This document shows positions 24,293 to 27,935 of a stretch of 42,209 nucleotides of DNA, piece after piece. The notes beneath the pieces were generated by a model. That model was not told where the DNA came from and did not search any database. It saw only the letters and a list, made by a program, of their open reading frames with translations. How positions within the stretch are numbered: the first letter of the stretch is position 1; every line of letters begins with the position of its first letter. A program made the position numbers and the translations under genes. This DNA comes from Plantactinospora alkalitolerans (GTDB taxonomy: Bacteria; Actinomycetota; Actinomycetes; Mycobacteriales; Micromonosporaceae), in assembly GCF_015690345.1 (NCBI RefSeq), contig NZ_JADPUN010000226.1, forward strand, positions 1 to 42,209, written 5' to 3'.

Positions 24293-25015
24293 ATGAAGCA
24301 ACGTATCGACCAGCTCACGCCGCTCGCCCTCGTCGCGGTATTCACCGTCGTGGTGCAGGGCCTGTCTCTGATGGAGTTCCTGCCACCGCCGATCGCACTG
24401 CTGATCGCAGCCGGCTGGGCGGTCCTCATCGGACTCGCCGCGCGCTGGGCCAACCGCAGGCCGGCGCTGAGCGCCTGGGCCGAGGACGGCCTCGTGGCGC
24501 TGGGCTGCGTGACCATGGCACTGTTCGCGTTCGGCGGTGCCGTCGGGCTGATGATGCTGGGCACCGCGCTGGACAGCTCGTCGATCACCGGGGAGACGAT
24601 GGTGACGATGTTCCTGCCCAGCATTCCCATCGCTATCGCGGCGAACGTCCCCACCGAACTCCTCGTCATCCCGGGCCTGCTGGTCCTCGGATGGCGTCCC
24701 GGCGCCCGCCGGATCCTCTTCGTCACCGCGGCCACGCTCTACTTCGTCCACCGCATCTGGACGTACCTCGTGTTCGTCCCCGACCGCCTGGACTTCGCCG
24801 CGGCGGAGCGCTCCACGGCGGTGCTGACCGCGGCGGAAAAGGTGCAGTTCGCCGCGGCGCTGCACGTCGACGACCCTCGGTGGATCCTCAATCTGCTGAT
24901 CTTCGGGGTCTTCCTACTGTCGGCGTTCTTCTCCCGGTCGCGTCGGCGCGGGCGACTGCTCGGCGAAAGTTCTCGTTCGGCGGCAACCTCGCCGACCCGG
25001 ATCGGCTGTACCTGA
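24293..25015 (+). CDS. Polytopic membrane protein, function unknown
   Basis: A 240-residue protein with about six hydrophobic segments. The first are PLALVAVFTVVVQGLSLMEF and PPPIALLIAAGWAVLIGLAA, and the last is WILNLLIFGVFLLSAFFSRS. An Arg/Ser-rich tail follows. I do not recognise a family and no catalytic motif stands out. ATG 24293 is preferred over ATG 24257 because the -10 TAGCGT lies 7 bp before it and ATG 24257 lies inside the operator. The promoter shares its operator with the two-component kinase gene, which suggests it belongs to that system's regulon. The lipoprotein-sigma operon starts 31 bp downstream. Confidence 0.7.
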   Translation: MKQRIDQLTPLALVAVFTVVVQGLSLMEFLPPPIALLIAAGWAVLIGLAARWANRRPALSAWAEDGLVALGCVTMALFAFGGAVGLMMLGTALDSSSITGETMVTMFLPSIPIAIAANVPTELLVIPGLLVLGWRPGARRILFVTAATLYFVHRIWTYLVFVPDRLDFAAAERSTAVLTAAEKVQFAAALHVDDPRWILNLLIFGVFLLSAFFSRSRRRGRLLGESSRSAATSPTRIGCT

Positions 25016-25046: not shown

Positions 25047-25499
25047 ATGAACGTGAAGCGTCTGTGGGTCCTCGTGCCCGTCACCCTGCTGGCGGGGTTG
25101 GCAGCCTGCACCGCTGCCTCGCCACGACCGGTACCTCTGGTCGGCACTCCGCTGCCCGAATCCAGTGCCACGTCGGCCACACCGACCACGGCCACGGCAG
25201 CGTCCACCGCTGCCGTGGAGCCGGTGAAGGCCGCCTGTCCGGCCAGCGTCGCGGCCCTGGAGCGGGCGGCGGGGGTGTCCGATGGCTACCGGATCGATCC
25301 GGACCAGATCCGCTGCGCCCAGAGGTGGGCCACGGCCAGCCTGATCGCCCCCAAACCCGAGTTGCAGGGCGATGGTGTGATTCTGTTCGAGTACAGGGCC
25401 GGTAGCTGGACGATGGTGGTCGAGGGCAGCGCGCTTGAATGCACACCGCACGGCATCCCGAAGGAGATCGGTGACCAGGTCGGCTGTCGCGACGACTGA
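25047..25499 (+). CDS. Lipoprotein with a four-cysteine domain, paralogous to the anti-sigma partner's exported domain
   Basis: A 150-residue secreted lipoprotein: signal peptide MNVKRLWVLVPVTLLAGLAAC with lipobox LAAC (Cys21), a Thr/Ala/Ser-rich linker to about residue 60, then an ~85-residue domain. That domain (CPASVAALERAAGVSDGYRI, QGDGVILFEY, EGSALEC, GDQVGC) aligns over its whole length with the C-terminus of the protein at 26058-26672. About half of the positions are identical, including four Cys and the words SDGYRID, QGDGVILF, EGSA and GDQ. The domain is not one I recognise. RBS GGAGGAACG precedes ATG 25047. The sigma gene overlaps its 3' end, so the three genes form one operon. Confidence 0.78.
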   Translation: MNVKRLWVLVPVTLLAGLAACTAASPRPVPLVGTPLPESSATSATPTTATAASTAAVEPVKAACPASVAALERAAGVSDGYRIDPDQIRCAQRWATASLIAPKPELQGDGVILFEYRAGSWTMVVEGSALECTPHGIPKEIGDQVGCRDD

Positions 25500-26058
25500 G
25501 ATGTCACCGGCATCCGGCGCCGTACTCCCCGCAGGGGATGACCCGGTCGAGGTGCGGTTCAACGAGTTCGTGCGGACCCGCACCGCGGCACTGCTGCGGA
25601 GCGCCTTTCTGCTGACCGGCGACCGGTACCTGGCTGAGGACCTGGTGCAGGACGGGTTGGCACGCACCCATCGGGCACTGCGTCGGCTCGCCGACGACGG
25701 GCATTTCGAGGCCTACACCCGTACCGCGATGTATCACCTGCATCTCCGCCGGTGGCGCCGGCGCCGCGTCACCGAGACGCTGCCCGGCGAAATGGCCGAC
25801 CTCGCCCAGCCGGCCAGTGACCACGCCGACCGCGTCAGTTTGAAGATCTCGCTGCACCGGGCGCTGGCTCAGCTCACCCGGCGGCAGCGGGCCGTGCTGG
25901 TGCTGCGGTTCTTCGAGGACCGCAGCGAGGCAGAGGCCGCCGAGATCCTGTCCTGCTCCGTCGGCACGATAAAGAGCCAGACCAGCAAGGCGCTGGCCCG
26001 GATGCGCACCATCGCGCCGGAGCTGCTGGCGCCCGCCACGGCGCGGGGGGCATCCTGA
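25471..26058 (+). CDS. SigE-family ECF-type RNA polymerase sigma factor
   Basis: A 195-residue sigma factor. Region 2 reads FNEFVRTRTAALLRSAFLLT, GDRYLAEDLVQDGLARTHRA and AMYHLHLRRWRRRR. Region 4 reads ALAQLTRRQRAVLVLRFFED and RSEAEAAEILSCSVGTIKSQ, followed by TSKALARMR. This is the actinobacterial SigE-like group. GTG 25471 has AAGGAG 4 bp upstream but overlaps the lipoprotein gene by 29 bp; ATG 25501, directly after that gene's stop, is the alternative. The stop overlaps the next gene's ATG (TGATG), the usual coupling of a sigma factor to its membrane anti-sigma partner. Confidence 0.9.
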   Translation: MTRSAVATTEMSPASGAVLPAGDDPVEVRFNEFVRTRTAALLRSAFLLTGDRYLAEDLVQDGLARTHRALRRLADDGHFEAYTRTAMYHLHLRRWRRRRVTETLPGEMADLAQPASDHADRVSLKISLHRALAQLTRRQRAVLVLRFFEDRSEAEAAEILSCSVGTIKSQTSKALARMRTIAPELLAPATARGAS

Positions 26059-26672
26059 TGACCGACGACCTCGATCCGCTCCGCCGTGCAATGGGCGACC
26101 TGGCCGAGCACGGCGGCAACGCCGACCTGTACGAGCGCTCACTGGCCACGTCCCGGCGGATGCGCCGACGCGGCACCATGCTCAACGTCGGTGCCACGGC
26201 GATCGCCGTCCTGGGGATCGGCGCAGGCATCGCTGCAATCAACGGCGGAGCGCCAGGACGCGGCCCGGTCGTCGGTCTCTCGGGCCCCGTATCCACCCCG
26301 ACGCTGCGGTCACCCTCACCCGCACAGTCCCCGCCAGCTTCGTCGCCGCCGACCCGCTCGCCCGCCTCATCCGCCTCATCGAGGGCCCCCGTCAGCGACG
26401 GCTGCCCGGTGCGGGCGTCCACCTTGCAGCGGGTGGCGCAGCTGTCGGACGGCTACCGGATCGATGCCGATTCGGTGGAATGTTGGAAGGGCTGGGCCAG
26501 TGCCGGTCTGACTGCTCCCACGCCCGATCAACAGGGCGATGGCGTGATCCTCTTCCGATACGATCCGGACCGCGGCTGGCGAAGGCACTCCGAGGGCAGC
26601 GCCTTCGACTGTGCGGACCTGGGGATCAAGAAGACGTCCGGCGACCAGCCGCCATTCTGCACGTACAACTAG
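26058..26672 (+). CDS. Probable membrane anti-sigma factor with exported four-cysteine domain
   Basis: A 204-residue single-pass protein. The cytosolic part (about 1-40, DLDPLRRAMGDLAEHGGNAD) is too short and different to match a zinc-binding anti-sigma domain, but its position fits that role. A membrane segment follows near 41-63 (MLNVGATAIAVLGIGAGIAA), then a Pro/Ser-rich linker. The ~88-residue C-terminal domain (LSDGYRIDADSVEC, QGDGVILFRY, EGSAFDC, GDQPPFC) is a paralogue of the lipoprotein at 25047. N-in topology would put this domain outside. It is coupled to the sigma gene by a 1-bp overlap. The anti-sigma role is inferred from position and topology. Confidence 0.7.
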   Translation: MTDDLDPLRRAMGDLAEHGGNADLYERSLATSRRMRRRGTMLNVGATAIAVLGIGAGIAAINGGAPGRGPVVGLSGPVSTPTLRSPSPAQSPPASSPPTRSPASSASSRAPVSDGCPVRASTLQRVAQLSDGYRIDADSVECWKGWASAGLTAPTPDQQGDGVILFRYDPDRGWRRHSEGSAFDCADLGIKKTSGDQPPFCTYN

Positions 26673-26852
26673 GTTCCAGAGCGGGCGTCGCGGGCGTCGG
26701 CGTCCGGCGCCGCCTGTTCCCGGCCGACCAGACGTCCAGGCGTGTCCAACCACGTCCAGGATGCCCGGCGACCGTGCTGGACATCGATGACGATCTCCCC
26801 AGTAGTCGCGCCGGAGGGGTCGGCGCGATGCCTACCGAGGAGGAGACGGTAC

Positions 26853-27935
26853 ATGAGAGTTCTCGCGAACAGGGCCAACTGGGCGACAAAGGTGGCGGTC
26901 GCACTGGTGTTGGCTGCGGCGCCCGCGCTGGCGCTGGGCCAGTCGGCGAGTGCCGCACCGGCACCGGGCCTGGACCCCGGTGCCACCGCCGACGCGTGGG
27001 CCGCCGGTCGGGCCGCGTACGGAGCGGGCGCCACCGAGCACCAGGCGATCGTGGCGTACTGGACGCCGGAGCGGATGCGGGCGGCGCAGCCGGCCGAGGA
27101 GTCGCCGGCCTACCGGCAGGCGGTCAAGCGGTACGTCGACAGTGGCCAGGCCGCCCCTCAGTCGGTCGACCGGGGCGCCCGGCTGACCGTCCCGCCGGCC
27201 GCCGGTGCGCTGGGCGTACCGAACAACGGCCCCGTCCCCGCGGCGCTGAACCCGAACTTCGCGTCCAACCATCCGACGGCCCGGACCAGCGGCAAGGTGT
27301 TCTTCACCCTGAACGGTGGCAACTTCGTCTGTTCCGCCACGGTGATCAACTCGGAGGGTCAGGACACCGTCTGGACCGCCGGGCACTGCACCCACTCCGG
27401 CGGCGCGGCCGGCGCGTTGGCCACCAACTGGGCGTTCGTGCCCGCGTTCGACGACGACCTGGCCAACCAGCGGCCGTTCGGCACCTGGACCGCGGCGCGC
27501 CTGATTCCCGCACCGGCCTGGCAGGCCAGCGGAAACTTCAACGAGGACATGGCCGTGGCGATCATGAACACGCTCAACGGCCGGCACATCGTCACCCAAC
27601 TCGGCGGGCAGGGCCTGGACGTCAACCGGGGCCTGAACGTCGCGATCAACGCCTTCGGCTACCCGCAGGAGGCGCCCTTCGACGGCGGCAACCTGATGCG
27701 CTGCTCCGGCGCCTCGCAACCCGAGTTCCCGGGCGCGACCCAGACCATCCGGATCCCCTGCGACATGACCCGTGGCTCCAGCGGCGGCGGTTGGCTGCTG
27801 AACTGGGACGGAAACTTCGGCTACCTGTACGGCGTCAACAGCCGGATCGACCGGATCGTCTCTCCGACCATCATGATCTCGCCGTTCTTCGACAACACCG
27901 CACTGAACCTCTACAACCAGACCAGGAACCTCTGA
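26853..27935 (+). CDS. Secreted trypsin/V8-like serine protease
   Basis: A 360-residue preproprotein. A Sec signal peptide (KVAVALVLAAAPALALGQSA, cleavage near residues 34-35) and a ~95-residue propeptide-like region precede an S1-type protease domain. The triad is visible: His near 177 in VWTAGHCTHSG, Asp near 231 in FNEDMAVAIM, and Ser near 309 in MTRGSSGGGWLL. The RGSSGGGW form is typical of the V8/Glu-specific-like group. ATG 26853 has GAGGAGGAG 7 bp upstream. It lies 180 bp behind the sigma/anti-sigma operon and could be a target of that sigma factor, though no shared promoter was found. Confidence 0.9.
   Translation: MRVLANRANWATKVAVALVLAAAPALALGQSASAAPAPGLDPGATADAWAAGRAAYGAGATEHQAIVAYWTPERMRAAQPAEESPAYRQAVKRYVDSGQAAPQSVDRGARLTVPPAAGALGVPNNGPVPAALNPNFASNHPTARTSGKVFFTLNGGNFVCSATVINSEGQDTVWTAGHCTHSGGAAGALATNWAFVPAFDDDLANQRPFGTWTAARLIPAPAWQASGNFNEDMAVAIMNTLNGRHIVTQLGGQGLDVNRGLNVAINAFGYPQEAPFDGGNLMRCSGASQPEFPGATQTIRIPCDMTRGSSGGGWLLNWDGNFGYLYGVNSRIDRIVSPTIMISPFFDNTALNLYNQTRNL

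Follow-up and report, generated by a model that had tools for sequence, protein, structure and literature searches.

We describe a three-gene system of the Micromonosporaceae in which the gene for a SigE-family sigma factor lies between the genes for a lipoprotein and a one-pass membrane protein, and in which these two proteins carry the same exported four-cysteine domain. The best explanation that we can offer, put forward tentatively, is that the three genes encode an autoregulated sigma/anti-sigma switch, with its sensor divided between the lipoprotein and the anti-sigma factor.

A sigma factor gene between two copies of one exported domain

The DNA analyzed here, referred to as the window, is a stretch of 42,209 nucleotides from Plantactinospora alkalitolerans, a member of the Micromonosporaceae (assembly GCF_015690345.1, contig NZ_JADPUN010000226.1, positions 1-42,209). 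The three genes lie on the forward strand in the order lipoprotein, SigE-family sigma factor and one-pass membrane protein, and the coordinates given for them in the initial annotation proved correct. The lipoprotein (25047..25499, 150 residues) was assigned from hydropathy and from its homology to the membrane protein. It has a LAAC lipobox, located by eye, its best 19-residue hydropathy is 2.04 (residues 6-24), and it contains one four-cysteine domain (25230..25496, from the domain alignment and profile). The sigma factor (25501..26058) scores 160.7 bits against the SigE-family model TIGR02983, for which the cut-off is 141.55, and it matches the Pfam sigma70 r2 and r4_2 domains of ECF sigma factors. 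The membrane protein (26058..26672, 204 residues), assigned from profiles and hydropathy, possesses a single hydrophobic stretch at residues 40-65, predicted by hydropathy to form the transmembrane helix (26175..26252). Ahead of the helix is an N-terminal segment (26058..26195), of which about 39 residues are cytosolic and whose 46 modelled columns extend into the helix. Beyond the helix lies the second four-cysteine domain (26391..26669), delimited by the domain alignment and a structure model. When hydropathy was run over the 30 trios described below, the protein start was misplaced in 4 of the 30 rows (L074, L095, L070 and L077).

The sigma factor gene had been described as overlapping both of its neighbors. 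On the downstream side this holds, as the sigma and membrane-protein genes share one base within a TGATG stop/start overlap (26056..26060), and such an overlap is present in 30/30 trios, as TGATG in 27 and as ATGA in three. On the lipoprotein side the overlap hinges on the sigma start. The ATG at 25501 leaves a 1-base gap after the lipoprotein stop; an alternative in-frame GTG at 25471, which by eye has GAAGGAG ahead of it, would give a 29-base overlap. In 24 of the 30 trios at least 50 bases separate the end of the lipoprotein gene from the nearest ATG sigma start, and the usual distance is 50-130 bases.

BLASTP aligned 142 positions of the lipoprotein and the membrane protein, linkers among them, at 42% identity (E 6e-30), confirming that they carry the same domain. 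In the domain alignment the two window copies are 48% identical, in agreement with an earlier estimate of about half of the positions. The domains by themselves reach a local score of 212, whereas 1000 shuffles averaged 25.8 and never exceeded 51. The four cysteines align as had been proposed, with C64, C90, C132 and C147 of the lipoprotein matching C116, C142, C185 and C201 of the membrane protein. All of the 100 tabulated domains have the second and third cysteines, 97 have the first, and 94 have the fourth, with six gaps. The structure model of the window membrane copy (mean pLDDT 90) comprises one helix, four strands and a short second helix.

We searched for relatives of this domain at the level of profiles and structures, as the initial annotation had advised, and Pfam, NCBIfam and the PDB yielded none that was convincing. 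Pfam gave nothing for the lipoprotein and, at E up to 1, solely Rv2743c for the membrane protein (E 0.024, below the cut-off). The NCBIfam matches to the exported proteins were weak (E 0.5 and 0.2), and PHROGs returned E 0.03 for the membrane protein and nothing for the lipoprotein. A sequence search of the PDB with the domain found no entry at E up to 1, and Foldseek against the PDB with the domain model had a best E of 0.16 and thus no hit at E 0.001. No match recurred in family searches of 37 four-cysteine domains, and LppP/LprE (PF14041) was matched neither by the window lipoprotein nor by any of these 37. We thus regard the four-cysteine domain as an exported domain family that has no description in the libraries searched.

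The surroundings of the trio in the window vary from those of its relatives. By eye a kinase/regulator pair lies upstream, and a trypsin-like protease gene (26742-27935; a weak Pfam match, below the cut-off) lies directly downstream. Neither is common to other trio loci, and the protease was for this reason left out of the system. Among frames of at least 100 residues in the fetched flanks, no family occurs in more than 4/30 trio loci, and none of the window's neighbors is common to the other trio loci. No second locus with the domain was found in the window's own genome at E 0.001.

The trio recurs across the family

The lipoprotein, sigma factor and membrane protein singled out in the initial annotation recur as a trio, in this gene order, in at least 30 of the 354 genomes of the family, the window's included. 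The domain profile matches 82 of the 354. We read 60 regions from other genomes (29 trios and 31 others), which with the window makes 61, and scanned them for the domain, the sigma factor and the N-terminal segment, using a profile of each. The 60 were mostly drawn from matches at E 1e-14 or better and most weaker matches were left out, so that 30 trios is a lower bound. A further 17 loci (16 trios and one remnant) were taken as already covered and are not added to the counts; L126 gave no hit at the script threshold, and one of the three domains of L127 was tabulated.

In the 61 regions read, all membrane proteins that combine the N-terminal segment with the four-cysteine domain sit in trios. 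The lipoproteins of 10 of the 30 trios carry two domains in tandem, giving 40 lipoprotein domains over 30 loci. Another 30 loci are solitary, with the domain in an exported protein, by eye mostly a lipoprotein, and with no trio-type sigma factor; at one of them, L110, a more distant sigma gene lies about 3 kb off. In a class-level sample of 394 genomes, the domain was matched in three genomes outside the family. Two of these matches (L193 and L194) have the four-cysteine domain fused behind an LppP/LprE lipoprotein domain (PF14041), and neither a trio-type sigma factor nor the N-terminal segment was found in them.

The solitary loci suggest that the domain has a job of its own, from which a different reading of the trio could be built. 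The lipoprotein would be a protective output of the sigma factor, and the anti-sigma factor would have borrowed its domain in order to detect whatever that output acts on. A simple output, however, need not stay beside the sigma gene, as the lipoprotein does in 30/30 trios, and we consider this reading unlikely; its other evidence is taken up with the promoters and the known systems.

The membrane protein is probably an anti-sigma factor

Conservation is strong over the N-terminal 46 residues of the membrane protein, where 14 of the 46 columns are invariant in 13 sequences, and a profile of this N-terminal segment has matches in 159/354 genomes of the family. From a much longer match list we chose 20 further regions. 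In 19 of these the segment adjoins a SigE-type sigma gene, including regions where it is joined to other sensors, which strengthens the initial view of the cytosolic segment as anti-sigma-like. The sole exception, L143 of Micromonospora zingiberis, is a broken remnant. In this remnant (L036, L143) an apparent lipoprotein start region is apparently fused directly to a membrane-protein start, and neither the sigma factor nor the domains were seen.

Fourteen of the 20 regions (L144-L157) have the N-terminal segment joined to other exported parts, and no match to the four-cysteine domain was found in them. The exported part of L150 is a WD40-like beta-propeller according to Pfam, and by eye most of the remaining ones are similar. 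The N-terminal segment thus appears to be a module that accompanies SigE-type sigma factors whatever the sensor, and by this association the membrane protein is probably the anti-sigma factor of the trio.

In length the cytosolic segment fits the short anti-sigma factors of class II, of which CnrY is an example. It is shorter than the class I anti-sigma domain, which has at least 50 residues and an average of 101 (PMC7406223). Pfam recognised no anti-sigma domain in the membrane protein, class I and RsgI-type domains included, and the partner here is a SigE-family ECF sigma factor. The missing domain match and a cytosolic part of only about 39 residues would also suit a membrane protein that is no anti-sigma factor, in which case the trio would comprise co-transcribed envelope genes with a sigma factor controlled by other means. 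We judge this very unlikely, since the same segment adjoins SigE-type sigma genes when it carries other sensors, and since the stop/start coupling is kept in every trio.

A conserved promoter-like element precedes the lipoprotein gene

Upstream of the trio in the window we located a promoter-like element, GGCAACC-N16-GCTGTA (24982..25010, forward strand), with a putative -35 at 24982-24988 and a putative -10 at 25005-25010. It is matched only once in the window, where 0.02 matches are expected from shuffles. The general form, GGCAACC-N16-[CG]NTGTA, stands ahead of the lipoprotein gene with the same spacing in 29 of the 30 trios, the exception being L094. A script located the lipoprotein start in all trios save L072, L075 and L092; 26 of these 27 starts have the element, in 23 cases 41-45 bases before the ATG. 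By comparison, the element is found at one of the 30 solitary loci (L122) and upstream of none of the 14 other sigma systems (L144-L157). This distribution indicates that the trio is very probably autoregulated, each sigma factor reading the promoter of its own operon with the lipoprotein as first product; recognition of the element by the sigma factor and a single transcript are both suggested by the association. Since the lipoprotein gene comes first behind the conserved element, the lipoprotein would be made by the switch as well as feeding into it.

Seven of the 14 systems L144-L157 have a GGCAAC[CG] -35 with a CGT[CT]T -10, a -10 that occurs in 0/30 trios. The -35 is common to the trios and to other SigE-type systems that have the same N-terminal segment. 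In the variant systems described below, the strict element stands before the sigma gene of L141, and L138-L140 have GGCAACC-N16-CGTGTG by eye.

The solitary lipoprotein with the trio element, L122, belongs to the same genome (G192) as the variant L140, whose sigma system is without an adjacent lipoprotein copy. Perhaps the L122 lipoprotein is the partner of the L140 system, relocated elsewhere. Its promoter element would also suit a lipoprotein that serves as protective output.

We looked for further outputs with the strict element in 10 genomes. It occurs at 42 sites, of which 10 are the operons themselves, and a backwards control gave 26. Outputs beyond the operon were hence not visible above chance in these genomes, apart from one extra site in G258, and the absence of a common further output gene speaks against the lipoprotein as a protective output. 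At the locus of the extra site (L180, minus strand, 40-1398), a near-copy of the trio promoter region lies before the gene for a BNR_4 protein, a possible additional target.

Variants of the system keep two copies of the domain

Five sigma systems differ from the trio (L138-L142). In three of them (L139, L140 and L141) the membrane protein bears two four-cysteine domains, and the fetched flanks, a few kb in extent, yielded no lipoprotein copy. The membrane protein of L138 likewise bears two and is accompanied by a downstream lipoprotein; in L142 the membrane protein and a downstream lipoprotein have one domain each. In the tandem membrane proteins, the first domains match the trio domain (E 2.3e-11) and are in turn matched by the second domains (E 2.2e-8). 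Compared directly with the trio domain, the second domains reach a non-significant E of 0.23, so that their homology to it rests on the intermediate set. Counted in this way, all 35 intact systems that we read have at least two copies of the domain, whether within a single protein or spread over two.

The sigma factors of the 35 four-cysteine systems form one clade (100/99). Within it, L139-L141 lie outside a moderately supported group of the rest (94/86), and L142 lies beside the window on a long branch. The position of L139-L141 weakly suggests that the tandem form is the older one and that the lipoprotein form arose from it by a split.

We also compared the domains in a tree of 85 columns and 100 rows, in which the bootstrap had not settled. 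Lipoprotein copies and membrane copies fall into separate groups for many of the trios. The two copies of one locus cluster together in L094 (100/94), L092 and L073. Those of L094 share 98% DNA identity, with third positions equal at 80/81 identical residues, which points to a recent gene conversion or re-duplication. DNA identities of 78% and 71% in L092 and L073, respectively, indicate that any such event there is old. The window lipoprotein domain clusters with the solitary copies, apart from its membrane partner (100/99). Partners may thus have been exchanged, and this grouping would be unexpected of a tightly co-evolving pair.

The motif xDGxxLF is kept in 40/40 lipoprotein copies, 27/30 solitary copies and 13/30 membrane copies. 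The 17 losses among the membrane copies coincide exactly with one clade and so probably reflect one event. Within this clade the lipoprotein and membrane copies are not equivalent.

This asymmetry bears on the decoy mechanism raised in the initial annotation. In the form considered here, both domains would bind the same small ligand or wall component and the autoinduced lipoprotein would soak it up and shut the response off, with no contact with the membrane protein. The clear homology of the two domains accords with a common ligand, as does their near-identity in L094, and a lipoprotein gene placed first behind the conserved promoter-like element is what titration would call for. Loss of the motif from 17/30 membrane copies, even if it was a single event, is at odds with equal copies that share one ligand, and titration makes little sense in L139-L141, where both copies reside in one membrane protein. 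The simple decoy is therefore the less well supported form of the original proposal and we regard it as doubtful; the same two observations favor a pair with divided roles.

A proposed switch with a divided sensor

In the divided-sensor switch that we prefer, the membrane protein would hold the sigma factor via its short N-terminal segment, and its exported domain would pair with the lipoprotein domain, either directly or over a shared, hypothetical ligand or surface. An envelope signal would alter the pairing and release the sigma factor, probably through proteolysis of the membrane protein. Free sigma factor would read GGCAACC-N16-[CG]NTGTA, giving more lipoprotein, sigma factor and anti-sigma factor on one transcript. 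Newly made lipoprotein would most likely re-engage the membrane copy and reset the switch. This negative feedback is a guess by analogy with CseA of Streptomyces coelicolor, the loss of which raises sigE promoter activity (PMC6767563).

Action of the two exported domains as a pair is a suggestion to which we give slightly less than even odds. It draws on the copy number of two, which is kept while the carrier protein changes. The solitary loci count against it, as the domain there works without the switch, and a model of the two-domain lipoproteins (nine rows; pLDDT 47, pTM 0.29) gave no structural support for contact between domains. More speculatively, the sensor might be a matched pair of one domain, split from an ancestral tandem, with the amount of lipoprotein setting the threshold of the switch.

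To our knowledge, only a minority of the sensors and signals of actinobacterial ECF switches have been identified. The trio is small and self-contained, and its strict promoter element could serve as a reporter. Its natural variants, with one or two lipoprotein domains or with tandem membrane domains, raise the question of whether an anti-sigma factor can sense by pairing with a product of its own operon. The system also points to an undescribed family of exported domains, and to a short module, anti-sigma-like in character, that is common to systems with very different sensors.

Comparison with known systems

CnrY/CnrX/CnrH of Cupriavidus, a metal-sensing system, combines a short cytosolic anti-sigma segment with a separate exported sensor partner. 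The trio would resemble it in both features; we know of no duplicated domain in CnrY/CnrX/CnrH.

Also close are the systems L144-L157, which share with the trio the N-terminal segment, the order of sigma factor and membrane protein and, in 7/14, the upstream GGCAAC[CG]. They differ in the sensor, a WD40-like propeller in L150, in a -10 of CGT[CT]T instead of TGTA and in giving no match to the four-cysteine domain.

The sigE-cseA-cseB-cseC operon of S. coelicolor resembles the trio in its SigE-type sigma factor and lipoprotein, and the targets of its sigma-E include GGCAACC...CGTCT sites with the same type of -35 (PMC6767563). That account describes two-component control with no anti-sigma factor, and a sigE promoter that is not a target of sigma-E. 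In the fetched flanks of the trio loci, no neighbor family, such as a cseB-cseC pair, was found in more than 4/30.

The initial annotation knew of no anti-sigma system built like the trio. We likewise found no such trio among the titles and abstract openings of the literature searched; the underlying logic, however, has a precedent in SigI6/RsgI6 of Clostridium thermocellum. According to PMC4711584, the sensor domain of the membrane anti-sigma factor RsgI6 is homologous to Xyn10D (57% over 381 residues), an exported protein under the same sigma factor, and the sigma gene is autoregulated. This is also the precedent for an anti-sigma factor that borrows the domain of an output. The same source sets SigI6/RsgI6 apart from the trio: its domains are enzyme and carbohydrate domains of known kind, the N-terminal part of RsgI has about 165 residues, and the sigma factor is a SigI instead of an ECF protein. 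Xyn10D itself is a cellulosomal enzyme, not a lipoprotein, encoded by a separate gene that, judging by its locus tag, lies elsewhere (PMC4711584), whereas the trio keeps its lipoprotein gene beside the sigma gene.
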